DNA of 64,000 nucleotides from Dyella amyloliquefaciens (GTDB lineage Bacteria; Pseudomonadota; Gammaproteobacteria; Xanthomonadales; Rhodanobacteraceae), in contig NZ_SAYT01000005.1 of assembly GCF_004296575.1 (NCBI RefSeq), positions 372,001-436,000 on the forward strand, written 5' to 3'. The first letter of the stretch is position 1, and each line of letters opens with the position of its first letter. The position numbers were made by a program, and so were the translations under genes. Shown here piece after piece: positions 56,450 through 63,863 of the stretch. The notes beneath the pieces are model-generated. The model did not search any database. It saw nothing but the letters and a program-made list of their open reading frames with translations, and was not told the DNA's origin.

Positions 56450-56463
56450 CTGACGCATGTCAG
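56450..56463 (+). promoter_or_regulatory. FNR/Dnr-like palindrome between the His-rich gene and ubiU
   Basis: CTGAC-GCAT-GTCAG, a perfect palindrome in its arms though only six of ten FNR-consensus positions. It is centred 66 bases before the preferred ubiU ATG. If used at -41.5 it predicts a start near 56498 and a short leader, which supports the ATG at 56523 over the upstream ATGs at 56457 and 56490. Confidence 0.5.
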
Positions 56464-56522
56464 CGACGCCTTACCCCGCGACAATCAGGATGCAGCCCGA
56501 CGTCCTGGGTGTCGAGGTCTGC

Positions 56523-57521
56523 ATGCAACTGGTCTGTCCCGCCGGCAACCTGCCGGCCCTCAAAGCGGCGGTGGATGCCGGCGCGGATGCGGTCTACGTC
56601 GGCTTGCGCGACCAGACCAACGCGCGCGCCTTCCCCGGCCTCAACTTCAACGACGAGGAGCTGCGGCAAGGCATCGCCTATGCGCAGACGCGCCAGCGCA
56701 AGGTCTACCTCGCGCTCAACACCTATCCGGACAGCGCGCGCCTGTCGCACTGGCATGCGGCGGTAGACAAGGCCGCATCGCTGGGGTGCGACGCCATCAT
56801 CGCCGCCGAGATGGCTGTGCTCGACTACGCCGCTCACCACCATTCCAAGCTCGCTCGCCATCTGTCGGTGCAAGGCTCAGCCACCACCGCACCGGCACTG
56901 CGCTACATGCATGAGCGCTTCGGCATCAGCCGCGCCGTGCTGCCTCGCGTGCTGTCGGTGCAGCAGGTGGAGCGCCTGTGCGAGCAGGCACCGGTACCTC
57001 TGGAAGTGTTCGCGTTCGGCAGCCTCTGCATCATGGTGGAGGGACGCTGCCAGCTGTCCAGCTACGTCACCGGTGCCTCACCAAATCGTCACGGCGTGTG
57101 CTCGCCGGCGAGCTTCGTGCGCTGGGAGGAACATGGCGACGGCGGGCGCAGCGTGCGCCTCAACCGAGTGTTGATCGATCGCTTCGATCCTTCGGAGCCC
57201 GCCGGGTATCCCACCGTGTGCAAGGGTCGCTACGCCGTAGGCAGCGAAACCTTCCACGCGCTGGAAGAACCCACCAGCCTCAATACGCTCGAACTGCTGC
57301 CTCGCCTGGCGAGCGCCGGCGTCACTGCATTGAAGATCGAAGGACGCCAGCGCGGCGTGGCCTATGTGACCTCGGTGACACGTACCTGGCGAGAAGCGCT
57401 CGATCGCTACAGCGCCGCGCCCGAGCGCTGGCAGACACGACCCGAATGGCAGTCCGCGCTCGCCAGGCACGCGGAAGGTCACCAGACCACGCTTGGTCCC
57501 TATCACCGCCATTGGCACTGA
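56523..57521 (+). CDS. ubiU: UbiU, O2-independent ubiquinone hydroxylation protein (U32 family)
   Basis: 332 residues from the ATG at 56523 (GAGGT five bases upstream), giving the [16 protein letters not shown] start seen in E. coli UbiU. The four 4Fe-4S cysteines are present in FGSLCIM, EGRC, GVCSP and [22 protein letters not shown] and KIEGRQR follow. With UbiV it carries out the O2-independent ring hydroxylations of ubiquinone synthesis. 13 bases before ubiV. Confidence 0.95.
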
Positions 57522-57534
57522 CACGAAGCACGCC

Positions 57535-58413
57535 ATGAAACTCAGCCTCGGCCCCTTGCAGTACTTCTGGCCGCGCGCGCGCACCTTCGCGTTCTATCGC
57601 GAAGCCGCCACGTGGCCGCTGGACATCATCTACCTCGGCGAGACGGTATGCAGCAAGCGCCGCGAATTGCGCACGCTCGACTGGATCATGCTCGCCCACG
57701 AGCTGGCGGAAAGCGGCAAGCAGATCGTGCTGTCGTCGCTCGCGCTGATCGAGGCCGAATCCGAGCTGGGCGCACTGCAACGCCTCATCGAGCAGGGCCA
57801 GGGATGGATCGAGGCGAACGACCTCTCCGCCATCCAGCTGTGCCGGACACGTGGCGTGCCCTTCGTGGCCGGCCCCACGCTCAACGTGTACAACCATCGC
57901 GCGCTGGCCATGCTGATGGAAGACGGGTTGCGCCGCTGGGTGCCTGGCGTCGAACAGGGCGCCGTGCTGATCGACGAACTGCGCAGCGCCTTGATGGAAG
58001 AAGGCTCCGACATACCCGAACTCGAGGTCATCGGCTTTGGACGCCTGCCGTTGTCCTATTCCGCGCGATGCTTCACAGCACGCGCGCTGGATGTGGCAAA
58101 AGACCAATGCGGCTTCCGCTGCATCGACTATCCGGATGGCCTGCCCCTGGCCACGCGCGAAGGCCGCCCGTTCCTGCGCATCAACGGCATCCAGATCCAG
58201 GGCGAAGAGATCACCGATCTCGGCCCCGAGCTACCTACCTTGCGAGCACTCGGCGTGGATGTGCTGCGCCTGTATCCGCAAGCCGAAGGCATGGAAGACA
58301 TCGTGGCGCACTTCGATCTCGCCCGCCGCTCCGTCACGCCACCGCCGCGCATCGGTGCGCGCAACGGCTACTGGCACGGCACGGCAGGGATGCGATCAGT
58401 CGACCTGCCTTGA
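57535..58413 (+). CDS. ubiV: UbiV, partner of UbiU
   Basis: 292 residues. [14 protein letters not shown] start, [12 protein letters not shown] (first Fe-S Cys) and [21 protein letters not shown] (three more) match E. coli UbiV. NGIQIQG and NGYWHGTAG close the protein. Forms the UbiUV heterodimer with two 4Fe-4S clusters. Same operon as ubiU. Confidence 0.95.
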
Positions 58414-59518: not shown

Positions 59519-60727
59519 TCAGACGCTCGCAAATACCAGGCTGGCGTTGGTACCACCGAAGCCGAAGCTGTTGGACATCACCGTCCTCAATGCCGCATCG
59601 CGCGTCTCACGCAATATCGGGAAACCTTGCGCGCGCTCATCGAGCTGGTCGATATGGGCCGAGCCGGCCATGAAGCCGCCCTTGAGCATCAACAGGCTGA
59701 AGATCGCCTCGTGCACGCTGGCAGCCCCCAGCGCATGTCCCGTCAACGCCTTGGTGGAAGACAGTGGCGGCACATCCGGTCCGAAGGCCTCGCGCACCGC
59801 GGTGAGTTCAACGATGTCCCCCAGCGGTGTGGCCGTGCCATGCGTATTGAGGTAATCGATCGGACCTTCGCAGTTGGCCATAGCCAGGCGCATGCAGCGC
59901 ACGGCACCTTCGCCCGAAGGCGCCACCATGTCCGCGCCATCGGACGTCACGCCATAGCCCACCAGTTCGGCGTGGATCGTTGCACCCCGCTTCCTGGCGT
60001 GTTCGTAATCCTCCAGCACCAGCATGCCGCCACCGCCGCCGATGACGAAGCCGTCGCGTGAGGCGTCATACGGTTTTGAGGCCAATTCCGGTGTCGCGTT
60101 GTACTGGGAGGACAGCGCACCCATCGCGTCGAACTGTGCGGTCATGCCCCAATGCACTTCTTCGCCACCGCCGGCAAAGACGACGTCCTGCGCGCCATGA
60201 CGGATCAGGTCGGCCGCGGCGCCAATGCAGTGTGCCGACGTGGCGCACGCCGCGGCAATGGAATAGCTCAGACCCAGGATGCCGAATGCCGTCGCCAGGG
60301 TGGCGGACACGGTGGAGCACATGGTCTTCGGCACCATGCAGGGGCCCACGCGGCGCACACCCTTTTCGCGTAGCAGATCGGCCGTCTCGATCTGCCACTG
60401 CGCCGAGCCGCCGCCCGAACCGGCGATCACGCCAATGCGCGGGTGACGAATCTGTTCGAGCGCGAGACCCGCGTCTTCCACCGCCGAGCGCATGGCGAGA
60501 TAGGCGTAAGCCGCGGCGTCGCCCATGAATCGCCGCAGCCGGCGGTCGATCAGTGCCTCGAGGTCGATCTTCGGCATGCCGGCCACATGGCTGCGCAAGC
60601 CCTTGGCGGCGTATTCGGGCATGGCACAAATGCCGCTCTTGAGATCCTGTAGTGCCTGCGTCACTGCGTCGGATGCATGCCCGAGGCAGGAGACGATACC
60701 CATGCCGGTGACGACGACGCGACGCAT
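59519..60727 (-). CDS. fabB: 3-oxoacyl-ACP synthase I
   Basis: 402 residues. [15 protein letters not shown] start, nucleophile Cys in [10 protein letters not shown]-like [11 protein letters not shown], His in [11 protein letters not shown] and [13 protein letters not shown]: the Cys-His-His triad of a [22 protein letters not shown] is distinctive for FabB. Essential with FabA for O2-independent unsaturated fatty acid synthesis. Coupled to fabA (TGATG). Confidence 0.95.
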
Positions 60728-61242
60728 CAGAAACCCTCCGTCGACTGGAACAGGCCCACGCGCATGTCAGTGGCCACATAGATCTGGCGTCCGTCGACGT
60801 GGACGGAGCCGTTGGCGACCACCACGTTCATGCGACCCTTGATCACGCGGCTGATGTCCACCTCGTAGCTGACCAGGCGGGCGCTGGGCAGCACCTGGCC
60901 GGTGAACTTCACCTGGCCGACGCCAAGCGCTCGACCGCGACCTTGCAGGCCAAGCCACGGCAGAAAGAAGCCACTGAGCTGCCACAAGGCATCCAGACCC
61001 AGGCAGCCGGGCATCACCGGGTCGCCATCAAAGTGGCATTCGAAGAACCACATGTTCGGGCTGATATCCAGCTCCGCGCGCAGCGATCCCTTGCCAAAGG
61101 CACCGTCATGCTCATCCACGTGCGTAATGCGGTCGAACATCAGCATGGGCGGCGATGGCAGGCGCGCATTGCCGGGGCCGAACAGTTCGCCGCGGGCGCA
61201 GGCGAGTAGCTGCTCGCGATCAAACGAGGAAGCGCGTGTCAT
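60727..61242 (-). CDS. fabA: 3-hydroxydecanoyl-ACP dehydratase/isomerase
   Basis: 171 residues. Catalytic His in [14 protein letters not shown] and Asp in [26 protein letters not shown] is the FabA signature. Introduces the double bond in anaerobic unsaturated fatty acid synthesis. Start ATG chosen at 61242; no strong ribosome site is visible. A putative FNR-like box lies 57 bases upstream. Confidence 0.95.
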
Positions 61243-61298: not shown

Positions 61299-61312
61299 CT
61301 GACGCGGATCAA
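61299..61312 (-). promoter_or_regulatory. FNR/Dnr-like palindrome before fabA
   Basis: CTGAC-GCGG-ATCAA on the plus strand, eight of ten consensus positions with one perfect half. Centred 64 bases before the fabA ATG, close to the spacing at norZ and ubiU. It lies between the stop of the ubiT fusion and fabA. Confidence 0.5.
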
Positions 61313-61349: not shown

Positions 61350-62237
61350 TCAACCCCGTCGCTCGCGATGGGCTTCCCGCGCCATCCGCGCCAGGCCCGC
61401 ACCTCGATGAAGGGCGATGCGCAGGCCCAGCGGCACGTCCTCCCAGGGCAGGCGTTCGAGCAGGTTGCGTGCAGTCAGCCCCAGCTCGGTATCGCCGGTG
61501 AGTACGAGTGCGCGCTGGAAGAACAGCGTATCTGCGTCCTCGAGACGGCCAGCCAGAAGCAGAAGATCGGTCGCGCTGCCACGCACGCAGGCTTCCGGTT
61601 CGCCTGCTATCACGCGCAGGCGCCCGTGGTCCCAGGTGAGCACCCAGCGCACGCCCAGGTCGCTGACTTCGATGCCGAGGCGGCGCCCCTTCATGAAATC
61701 GAGCGAACCGTCGCGCAACGGTGCAACGAGCACGCGGCTCATCGCCTTCTCCAGCAGGGCGTGCTGCCAGCGGCCAGGAATGGCGCGAACCAGCGGTGCC
61801 ATACGGCGCGGCGGCGGCATCCAGCCCAGTACCTGCGGCGCCAGCGTGGAGGGAGCAATCGATATCGGCATGGCGGGAATCATCGACCTGGGCGGCATCT
61901 CCCTGCCCTGACCAACATCAAGGCGGCCACTTTCGCCAACGAGGCCTTGCTGCAGGCAGGCATCGTCAATGGCAAGGTCGAGCAGCGTGCGTGCCGTGGC
62001 ATCTGGCACGCCAACGCGCGCTGCGAGTGTTTGCGCACGGGCACGCACGCGCTGCTCACGGCTAGTGTCCCGACCAGCCATGCCGGCACGCGACTTCAGC
62101 CATGCGACGACTCGCACGAGACGCCGACGTGCCGCCAAAAGAAGGATCAATCCGTCATCGACCCCATCGATGGCGCCACGCGCACGATCAAGGAACCAGC
62201 GATCACGCGGAAGCGACAGCACCGGGATGCTCCTCAT
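61350..62237 (-). CDS. ubiT: Chorismate mutase-UbiT (SCP2) fusion
   Basis: 295 residues in two domains. Residues 13-100 align without gaps, at a constant offset of nine, to the E. coli PheA chorismate mutase domain: Arg20, Arg37, Lys48, Asp57, Arg60, Glu61 and Gln97 correspond to its active-site Arg11, Arg28, Lys39, Asp48, Arg51, Glu52 and Gln88. Residues ~130-290 are UbiT: DADTLFFQR, LTGDTELGL and ARNLLERL. UbiT is the lipid-binding SCP2 protein of O2-independent ubiquinone synthesis. A GTG at 62222 has AGGAG seven bases upstream and may be the true start. Confidence 0.9.
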   Translation of the reverse strand: MRSIPVLSLPRDRWFLDRARGAIDGVDDGLILLLAARRRLVRVVAWLKSRAGMAGRDTSREQRVRARAQTLAARVGVPDATARTLLDLAIDDACLQQGLVGESGRLDVGQGREMPPRSMIPAMPISIAPSTLAPQVLGWMPPPRRMAPLVRAIPGRWQHALLEKAMSRVLVAPLRDGSLDFMKGRRLGIEVSDLGVRWVLTWDHGRLRVIAGEPEACVRGSATDLLLLAGRLEDADTLFFQRALVLTGDTELGLTARNLLERLPWEDVPLGLRIALHRGAGLARMAREAHRERRG

Positions 62238-62604
62238 TGGCGACGATCAAGGCATGCGCAGCGGGCAGCACGGCGCCGGCATACACGCGTGATGCCTCAT
62301 CCGGCGCGAAGTCCACATGCTGTCGTTTCTTGACGTCGTAGTCCGACAGCACCAGATGAGCGTCGGCGACCACTCCTGCGCGCGCCAGACAGGCAGCCAC
62401 GCAGCGCATCTCACATCCATCGAGTGCGAGTATCCGTCGCCCGCTTTTTGCCGTCCGCACCAGACCGGGCACACCACCACCCACACCTGCGATGCAGGAC
62501 ATTTCCGCCACCCCCTCGCGATCGAGACGCAACGCAAGGTGATTGGCCATCTGTGCCGCGCTCGAGCATCCCGAGCAGGCGTAGACGAGAGTTCCCTTGG
62601 GCAT
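62203..62604 (-). CDS. DGC-type putative zinc-binding protein
   Basis: 133 residues. CSGCSSAAQMANHLA near the start and ALDGCEMRCVAACL match the DGC protein family (named for its Asp-Gly-Cys), with other Cys in MSCIAG. Likely metal-binding; the function is unknown. The ATG at 62604 is used; a GTG at 62610 overlaps the upstream stop as GTGA. Its 3' end overlaps the ubiT fusion by 35 bases. Confidence 0.75.
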   Translation of the reverse strand: MPKGTLVYACSGCSSAAQMANHLALRLDREGVAEMSCIAGVGGGVPGLVRTAKSGRRILALDGCEMRCVAACLARAGVVADAHLVLSDYDVKKRQHVDFAPDEASRVYAGAVLPAAHALIVANEEHPGAVASA

Positions 62605-62606
62605 GT

Positions 62607-63863
62607 TCACCGTCCCGGATTCGCTTGATCACGCAAGAACCGCTGCACGCGGCGGCGCGTGCCGAGGAAAGCGGCCGCCACTCCTCCCCATGCAACGCAC
62701 TGAAGCAACCCCGCCGCACGGGCAATCCACGCCGCGGGATACAGCGTCGCCAGTACGACCATCGTGCCGGCAACAGCCAGGGCGATAGCCACCGCACCAC
62801 GCTCTCTTGCGGGCATCAGGCGCTGCACGCCGGGCAACTGAACACCTCGACCAACACGCCGGTGAAGTTCGATCCAGCCCAGGAAGGCGACGATTTCCAG
62901 TGCCATGCCGGTCACCAGCAAGGGCAACGCCACACCCAGCGCAAGCGCTGCCGCAAGCAAGGGCGCGTGGCTTTGCCATGGCAGCGCCAGCACCGATGCC
63001 ATCAACGCGAATGCAGCCCCTCGCCAGCTCCACCACAGGGGGCCGCGACGTGCCTGGGTCGTGCGCATCTGCAGCCAGGCCACCGTGAGTGCGAACGACA
63101 TGCCGAAGAGCGCCAGCGTCGCCGGCAAGCCCGTTTCGTTCATGCCGGACAGACGCAGGGCTGCGGCAATCGGCAAAAGCACCACCACACTGCCGAGCCA
63201 GGCCGCATGCCACTTCACCGGCGGCACGCCGGTGCCCTGAAACATCGGCATGACCACGCGCCCCACGCTGGCCAGCAGCAGCACGACCCAACCGAGCACT
63301 CCGAACGATGCATGGACATCCACCCACTTCGGCATGGCCAACGACAACCGGCCGCTGCCGCAAAGTGCCAGAGCGCCGCCAACCAAGGCCGTTGCCAGTC
63401 CGTAAACGAGCGATGCGCCGACGCCCATTCGCAGCAGCCGTTGCCCGGCGGAGCGACACACCGCGGGCAGGATGATGCCGGCCATGGCCAGGAATGCCAG
63501 CGGCAACAGCAGCCCCCCCAGCGTCAGCAGCACGGACGAGCCGAGATAGAAGCCGCACACGAGTGACAATGCACCCGCGTTCAATGCGACGTGCACCCAG
63601 GCGCCCAGCCGCTCACCGCGAAGCGGAACCCCGGCGGCGGCCGGCAGGAACTGCAGCAGGCTGCCGAACATGGCATTGCCGAGCACGCCCAGGGTGATGG
63701 TATGCACCAAAGCCAGCGTGCCAGGATGCCAACGCGATCGCAGCAAGCTGTCGCCATCGATCACCAGCAGCAGGCCTGCCAGCACGCCCCAGATCGGCAT
63801 GGAGCACAGGAACCGACGCGGAAGCGAAACGATCGGCGCCTGGTCAAGCGCCAGCCGGGCCAT
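62607..63863 (-). CDS. NnrS-like multi-pass membrane protein
   Basis: 418 residues and about 12 helices. The conserved-looking HTITLGVLGNAMFGSLLQ and HASFGVLGWVVLL, each with a helix-embedded His, resemble NnrS-type haem/NO-associated membrane proteins near denitrification genes. I cannot confirm the family without a search. Overlaps the DGC-type gene and the partial gene upstream, so the block appears to be one operon with the ubiT fusion. Confidence 0.6.
   Translation of the reverse strand: MARLALDQAPIVSLPRRFLCSMPIWGVLAGLLLVIDGDSLLRSRWHPGTLALVHTITLGVLGNAMFGSLLQFLPAAAGVPLRGERLGAWVHVALNAGALSLVCGFYLGSSVLLTLGGLLLPLAFLAMAGIILPAVCRSAGQRLLRMGVGASLVYGLATALVGGALALCGSGRLSLAMPKWVDVHASFGVLGWVVLLLASVGRVVMPMFQGTGVPPVKWHAAWLGSVVVLLPIAAALRLSGMNETGLPATLALFGMSFALTVAWLQMRTTQARRGPLWWSWRGAAFALMASVLALPWQSHAPLLAAALALGVALPLLVTGMALEIVAFLGWIELHRRVGRGVQLPGVQRLMPARERGAVAIALAVAGTMVVLATLYPAAWIARAAGLLQCVAWGGVAAAFLGTRRRVQRFLRDQANPGR

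Follow-up and report, generated by a model that had tools for sequence, protein, structure and literature searches.

The CM-UbiT Gene and Its Neighbourhood

The window (the whole stretch of 64,000 nucleotides of Dyella amyloliquefaciens DNA that was analysed) contains a gene in which a chorismate mutase (CM) domain is placed ahead of UbiT, together with ubiU, ubiV and two genes of fatty acid synthesis. The features are as follows:

56457 to 57521, plus strand: ubiU (NF047963, 531 bits, cut-off 440; profile match from residue 23)
57493 to 58413, plus strand: ubiV (NF047965, 343.6 bits, cut-off 275)
59519 to 60727, minus strand: fabB-like beta-ketoacyl-ACP synthase I (NF005935, 628.3 bits, just below the cut-off of 630)
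60727 to 61242, minus strand: fabA, 107 bases downstream of the fusion (TIGR01749, 272.9 bits, cut-off 238)
61350 to 62237, minus strand: CM-UbiT fusion gene, 295 amino acids, a single open frame with CM_2 and UbiT profile matches
61440 to 61787, minus strand: UbiT (SCP2) domain of the fusion, residues 151-266 (NF047962, 124.3 bits, cut-off 46.9)
61812 to 61940, minus strand: linker of the fusion, residues 100-142, with fast protein-sequence evolution (dN/dS 0.52-1.03 in seven comparisons)
61953 to 62180, minus strand: CM domain (AroQ, CM_2) of the fusion, residues 20-95, with the active-site residues R20, R37, K48, D57, R60 and E61; Q97 lies just past the profile match
62203 to 62610, minus strand: DGC-domain protein, directly upstream of the fusion and overlapping it by 35 bases (PF08859, E 9.2e-35)
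62607 to 63863, minus strand: membrane-like protein, upstream, sharing 4 bases with the DGC gene; without a match in Pfam or NCBIfam

The gene at 61350 to 62237 is confirmed as a genuine single-frame fusion of a CM and UbiT. Its CM domain matches the Pfam family CM_2 with 42.8 bits (gathering cut-off 27, E 6.4e-11), the Pfam domain SCP2 is found at residues 174-260 (50.9 bits, cut-off 21.3, E 2.2e-13), and the NCBIfam equivalog for UbiT is well over its curated cut-off (E 3.2e-36). This bears out a sequence-only reading of the same DNA, which had joined a CM to a C-terminal UbiT domain; the case that would speak against it, namely that the two halves are separate genes, is opposed by the recurrence of the fused frame in 73 distinct CM sequences. 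In contrast to UbiT, the CM part does not reach the curated cut-off for any of the 12 listed NCBIfam CM models (39 vs 120 bits at best, PRK09239) and is thus an AroQ chorismate mutase of a separate branch. Two trivial explanations were considered: a sequencing slip or two genes merged in the reading is ruled out by the 73 distinct fused CM sequences, and a chance match to CM is ruled out by the profile E-value, the active site and the fold.

Since the profile match of UbiU begins at residue 23, ubiU probably starts at the inner ATG at 56523; for ubiV, the inner ATG at 57535 is the probable start. On the minus strand, the order is membrane-like gene, DGC-domain gene, CM-ubiT, fabA and fabB-like gene, all overlapping or close to each other, with a largest gap of 107 bases. 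Past the end of the window follow a copper nitrite reductase (nirK), an Fnr-like regulator and hemN, and the neighbours of the fusion (fabA and the fabB-like gene, nirK, the Fnr-like regulator, hemN) are anaerobic ones. Fnr boxes (TTGATNNNNATCAA, at most two mismatches) were counted at 27 sites in the window against 11.3 expected and were set aside as evidence; just two sites, at 2298 and 3690 and far from the fusion cluster, have a single mismatch, whereas the stretch separating the fusion from fabA holds a site with two mismatches, at 61299.

Active Site, Selection and Fold of the CM Domain

In a single-sequence phmmer comparison, the CM of the fusion gives a weak match to the E. coli CM 1ecm_A (E 0.06), in which R20, R37, K48, D57, R60 and E61 align gap-free with R11, R28, K39, D48, R51 and E52. 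At the seventh catalytic position, HMMER places a gap just before the residue, so that Q96 falls opposite Q88, whereas it is Q97 that does so when the alignment is read without a gap; the residue is a glutamine either way, and Q97 is conserved in 72 of the 73 fused CMs versus 41 for Q96. The active site had been described as intact with all seven positions in gap-free alignment; all seven catalytic residues are indeed present and kept in relatives, but only the first six are gap-free in the HMMER alignment. The catalytic positions follow the numbering of the E. coli enzyme, whose Ser84 corresponds to Ala93 of the fusion.

Among the 73 distinct fused CM domains, R20, R37, K48, R60 and E61 are invariant and D57 is found in 70; with a mean majority frequency of 0.58 over the 92 CM columns, the catalytic residues are the best-conserved part of the domain. 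Comparison with seven relatives of the same genus gave a dN/dS of the CM of 0.09-0.15 in five, 0.28 in one and a saturated value in one, and of 0.07-0.18 for the UbiT part. In all seven pairs, dS of the linker is lower and dN of the linker higher than that of the CM, and the contrast in dN/dS between CM and linker is rough, because several pairs are close to saturation in their synonymous CM changes and the linker ratio stems partly from low dS. The CM domain is under purifying selection. The conservation also bears on the idea that the domain is a sensor, which binds chorismate or prephenate and tunes UbiT without need of turnover. CM-like domains act as regulators in other fusions, and DAH7PS-CM structures appear in the fold list of the CM model described below; however, it is the catalytic residues that are most conserved in the 73 domains, a pattern that does not fully separate binding from turnover, and we regard a sensor as quite unlikely.

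A structure model of the CM domain, obtained with a five-sequence alignment (pLDDT 75), consists of three helices and superimposes on 1ecm_A with a TM score of 0.81/0.82 and 1.7 Å (Foldseek E 5.3e-3, with no match under 0.001), so that the comparison with the E. coli enzyme proposed by the sequence-only reading turned out in its favour. The model of the full-length CM-UbiT protein was poor (pLDDT 45) and was discarded. The first seven rows of the Foldseek list for the CM model are all chorismate mutases, and isochorismate-pyruvate lyases follow lower down. The AroQ fold thus also includes lyases, and 4-hydroxybenzoate is the ring precursor, which raises the question of whether the domain performs other chorismate chemistry, either the making of 4-hydroxybenzoate or that of an isochorismate-pyruvate lyase. 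Among the 13 NCBIfam families listed (E up to 0.1), however, the 12 chorismate mutase models are not accompanied by any lyase model of the PchB type, and the domain has the full set of seven CM residues, making such a chemistry very improbable. Judged by its residues and predicted fold, the CM part would be a working chorismate mutase.

Distribution of the Fusion

The fusion, which is carried by a group of gammaproteobacteria, was followed in a family sample of 197 genomes and an order sample of 299 genomes. In the family sample, 54 genomes have a UbiT over the cut-off, and 49 of them carry the CM in the same frame; UbiU is likewise found in 54 genomes (52 over the cut-off), both proteins occur together in 53, and 53 of the 54 genomes with an over-cut-off UbiT have UbiU. 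Five genomes have an unfused UbiT: the CM is a gene of its own in G036 and G103, UbiT and UbiU are present with no CM near ubiT in G189 and G007, and G031, the sole genome with an over-cut-off UbiT and no UbiU, has also lost the CM part. When remnants of the CM were searched for near ubiT with tblastn, G031 and G189 showed a match to the linker but none to the CM domain, and G007, G036 and G103 gave no match at all. In a further genome, G149 (90% complete, 460 contigs), the fused frame is cut by a contig end and falls under the UbiT cut-off, and there is no match to UbiU; on these data, the tie to UbiU may therefore not be strict.

In the order sample, UbiT is over the cut-off in 80 of the 299 genomes and fused in 42 of these 80, where genomes without a fetched locus were called unfused if the open frame had at most 250 amino acids and CM places were elsewhere or absent. 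The fused share is 18 of 21 in the family of the window, 19 of 19, 1 of 1 and 4 of 4 in three other families and 0 of 35 in the remaining four. Of the 44 fused loci of at least 9 kb, 35 hold ubiU and ubiV within 9 kb; L008 and L052 of this set probably stem from a single genome, and to one side many of the loci extend for less than 9 kb. The named records among the fusion matches are Dyella and a Rhodanobacteraceae record.

Some observations on individual loci can be added. The Dyella jiangningensis sequence CP007444.1 contains two identical fusion-bearing stretches of 20,876 bases (L005 and L006), about 5 Mb apart, which is a duplication or an assembly matter. In G056 (L042, 177-1550 and 1532-2479), a TyrA-type gene is convergent to CM-UbiT and the two frames overlap by 19 bases; the TyrA-type gene encodes a CM-prephenate dehydrogenase (518 bits, cut-off 273). 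Homologues of the profile-less membrane-like gene lie within 9 kb in 26 of the 44 fused loci.

CMs Standing Alone Beside ubiT and the Origin of the Linkage

At the class level, 90 of the 99 genomes with an over-cut-off UbiT were searched for CM, leaving out three of the window's order and six with weak or cut UbiT matches. CM_2 is present in 85 of these 90 genomes with an unfused UbiT. Six CMs, found in five genomes of five families, have short frames of 102-160 amino acids, and the frames of the others span 318-789 amino acids. Five of the six directly adjoin ubiT (in G704, G566, G458, G598 and G651), and in all five genomes ubiU and ubiV are located next to the CM/ubiT pair (stretches of 13-19.5 kb); in 85 of the 90 class-level UbiT genomes outside the fusion clade, no CM is found beside ubiT. 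The five ubiT-adjacent CMs keep R11, R28, K39, R51 and E52, none of them has a glutamine at the position of Q88, and one keeps D48, so that their activity is less sure than that of the fused CMs.

Further samples yielded no additional pair. Among 41 further genomes of the class, five short-frame CMs were found, four of them off the ubiT contig and one about 0.96 Mb away; among 60 genomes from other classes of the phylum, nine short-frame CMs occur in eight genomes, and CM and ubiT are on different contigs in the three genomes for which a place of ubiT is listed. Within the order, seven of 50 genomes possess short-frame CMs (G297, G300, G308, G214, G218, G036 and G103). Those of G297, G300 and G308 lie within 600 bases of a contig start, that of G214 is about 247 kb away from ubiT, and that of G218 is an extra one. 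G036 and G103 form the genus g14, in which a lone CM is located between the membrane-like gene and fabA (L197 4999-5511, L199 6760-7272), the very place of the fusion in Dyella, and ubiT is found elsewhere, beside ubiUV. The lone CM keeps all seven catalytic residues and branches within the clade of fused CMs (99/81); it is likely a secondary split of the fusion.

These free-standing CMs are relevant to the proposal that the CM fold acts as a scaffold on which UbiT dimerises. The intertwined dimers formed by AroQ CMs would suit such a function. A scaffold, however, has no need of the whole active site that is kept here, and the CM stands free of UbiT in g14 and in five other families, rendering this proposal highly unlikely.

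In a CM tree of 88 columns with 25 of the 73 fused sequences, the fused CMs form a group of their own (97/94), separate from the sampled long-frame and free CMs, and a branch (92/81) sets the five ubiT-adjacent CMs to one side. Neither a single clade of fused and adjacent CMs (p 0.478) nor a g14 CM outside the fusion (p 0.097) is rejected in an AU test, and one early association of UbiT and CM or two separate ones are both possible. The UbiT tree, on which the 'fused' state needs six changes, has few columns and many long branches and was set aside.

Proposed Prephenate Supply and the Probable Role of the Fused CM

PMC10470549 describes that the ring of ubiquinone is derived from chorismate via 4-hydroxybenzoate (UbiC step), that UbiT binds ubiquinone precursors and is required for the function of UbiUV, and that UbiUV use a donor other than O2, for which prephenate is named as a candidate. 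Section 9 of PMC11574389, citing Ferizhendi et al. (PNAS 2024), gives prephenate as the source of the hydroxyl oxygen in anaerobic ubiquinone; the same review states that direct evidence of U32 enzymes catalysing the prephenate reaction is still missing. Prephenate is also required for the modification that is made with the related U32 protein TrhP, as described in PMC6599085. As the product of a CM is the reported source of the hydroxyl oxygen, oxygen-donor supply is the direct link of CM to UbiT, and with an intact CM site joined to UbiT, local supply of the donor is the simplest reading. We therefore propose, with a probability of roughly three in four, that the CM of the fusion provides prephenate as oxygen donor at the UbiT/UbiU/UbiV complex. 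UbiT, which binds the hydrophobic ubiquinone precursors, is itself needed by the [4Fe-4S] hydroxylases UbiU-UbiV, the CM part would convert chorismate to prephenate, and the hydroxylases would use it as oxygen donor; three prephenates would be consumed per ubiquinone if all three ring hydroxylations draw on it. With the CM fixed to UbiT, donor synthesis would take place at the hydroxylation complex and inside the same anaerobic gene cluster, adding to the general prephenate supply from PheA. Activity of the CM, physical delivery of prephenate and a benefit under anoxia are what we infer from the arrangement.

The sequence-only reading had linked the protein to the quinone pathway and suggested that ring-precursor flow is coordinated with it, with the CM diverting, channelling or sensing chorismate. 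The tie to O2-independent ubiquinone synthesis stands, with ubiU and ubiV in the locus, but the role of prephenate as donor was missed. Coordinating precursor flow, or diverting or sensing chorismate, is unlikely to be the main reason for the fusion, since the CM competes with the UbiC step rather than feeding it; channelling survives in altered form, with prephenate as the donor.

A different reason for keeping the domain would be amino acid synthesis, if a second CM of that pathway had been fused to UbiT by chance and retained for phenylalanine and tyrosine formation under anoxia. CM is a housekeeping activity, and in G001, G598 and G651 the UbiT-linked CM is the sole CM_2 match found and could serve amino acid synthesis there too. 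The window's genome (G000), however, encodes a CM-prephenate dehydratase apart from the fusion (CM_P2, 89 bits, cut-off 70), which makes the fused CM an addition, and a second CM in a frame of at least 372 amino acids is present in nine of the ten other fused genomes searched, so that the fused CM is probably not the housekeeping enzyme in G000 and those nine. Furthermore, CMs from separate parts of the tree share the linkage to ubiT, and G031, with UbiT over the cut-off but without UbiU, has no CM part. An amino acid function as the reason for the fusion is thus unlikely.

Returning to donor supply, the CM domain improves the supply and is no requirement. It is dispensable, since G189 and G007 have lost it while UbiT and UbiU stay, and free prephenate suffices in general, given that ubiT lacks a neighbouring CM in 85 of the 90 other UbiT genomes. 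On balance, we lean towards a wider view, in which a dedicated CM is a real, lineage-specific part of the O2-independent ubiquinone pathway: the UbiT-UbiU-UbiV complex would make its own donor, with prephenate passing from the site of the CM on to the hydroxylases. The tie between CM and UbiT would have arisen twice, or once very early, and would have persisted since then as a fusion, as neighbouring genes or as a split gene.

Comparison with Known Systems

The Dyella protein resembles UbiT of the UbiT-UbiU-UbiV system of E. coli and other Pseudomonadota, as described in PMC6747719 and PMC10470549, in that its SCP2 domain is over the UbiT cut-off and ubiU and ubiV are found in the same locus. 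It differs by the CM ahead of UbiT: the E. coli protein has 174 amino acids that are mostly SCP2 domain. A ubiT-ubiU fusion of Zymomonas mobilis, mentioned in PMC6747719, likewise joins UbiT to a partner of the same pathway, but this partner is the hydroxylase UbiU and not a CM. With the AroQ chorismate mutases (E. coli PheA N-terminal domain, 1ecm), the fused CM shares the three-helix fold and the seven catalytic residues; it differs in forming its own branch, apart from those sampled, and in scoring under the listed NCBIfam CM cut-offs. A prephenate-dependent, O2-independent hydroxylation has been proposed for the U32 proteins TrhP and RlhA in the available text of PMC6599085; these proteins, however, act on RNA, and that text names pheA/tyrA as prephenate source and describes no linked CM.

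In a literature search of partial coverage, no paper with UbiT and 'chorismate mutase' together was found, and an earlier mention is possible; in the same partial coverage, 'chorismate mutase' with SCP2 appeared in one paper, on metabolic engineering. The words 'fusion' and 'fused' are absent from the main text of PMC11707229 and PMC13386864. That prephenate may act as an organic oxygen donor has been put forward only recently, and for this idea a CM-UbiT fusion with a selected active site is independent genomic support, and the ubiT-adjacent CM gene in other families adds to it. CM-UbiT also offers a single protein for coupling donor synthesis and hydroxylation in vitro.

Two further observations concern the loci and the protein as such. 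fabA is located within 9 kb of CM-UbiT in 24 and a fabB-like KAS in 23 of the 44 fused loci, and fabA lies at most about 6.5 kb from the CM in three of the five stand-alone-CM loci (L147, L193 and L195); the O2-independent routes of fatty acid desaturation and of ubiquinone synthesis seem to go hand in hand. Between the CM and UbiT domains, in the linker region (61812-61940), methionine codons are found in 69 of the 76 distinct fused frames and, at the same place, also in G189, a relative lacking the CM; a UbiT-only product via an internal start is possible.
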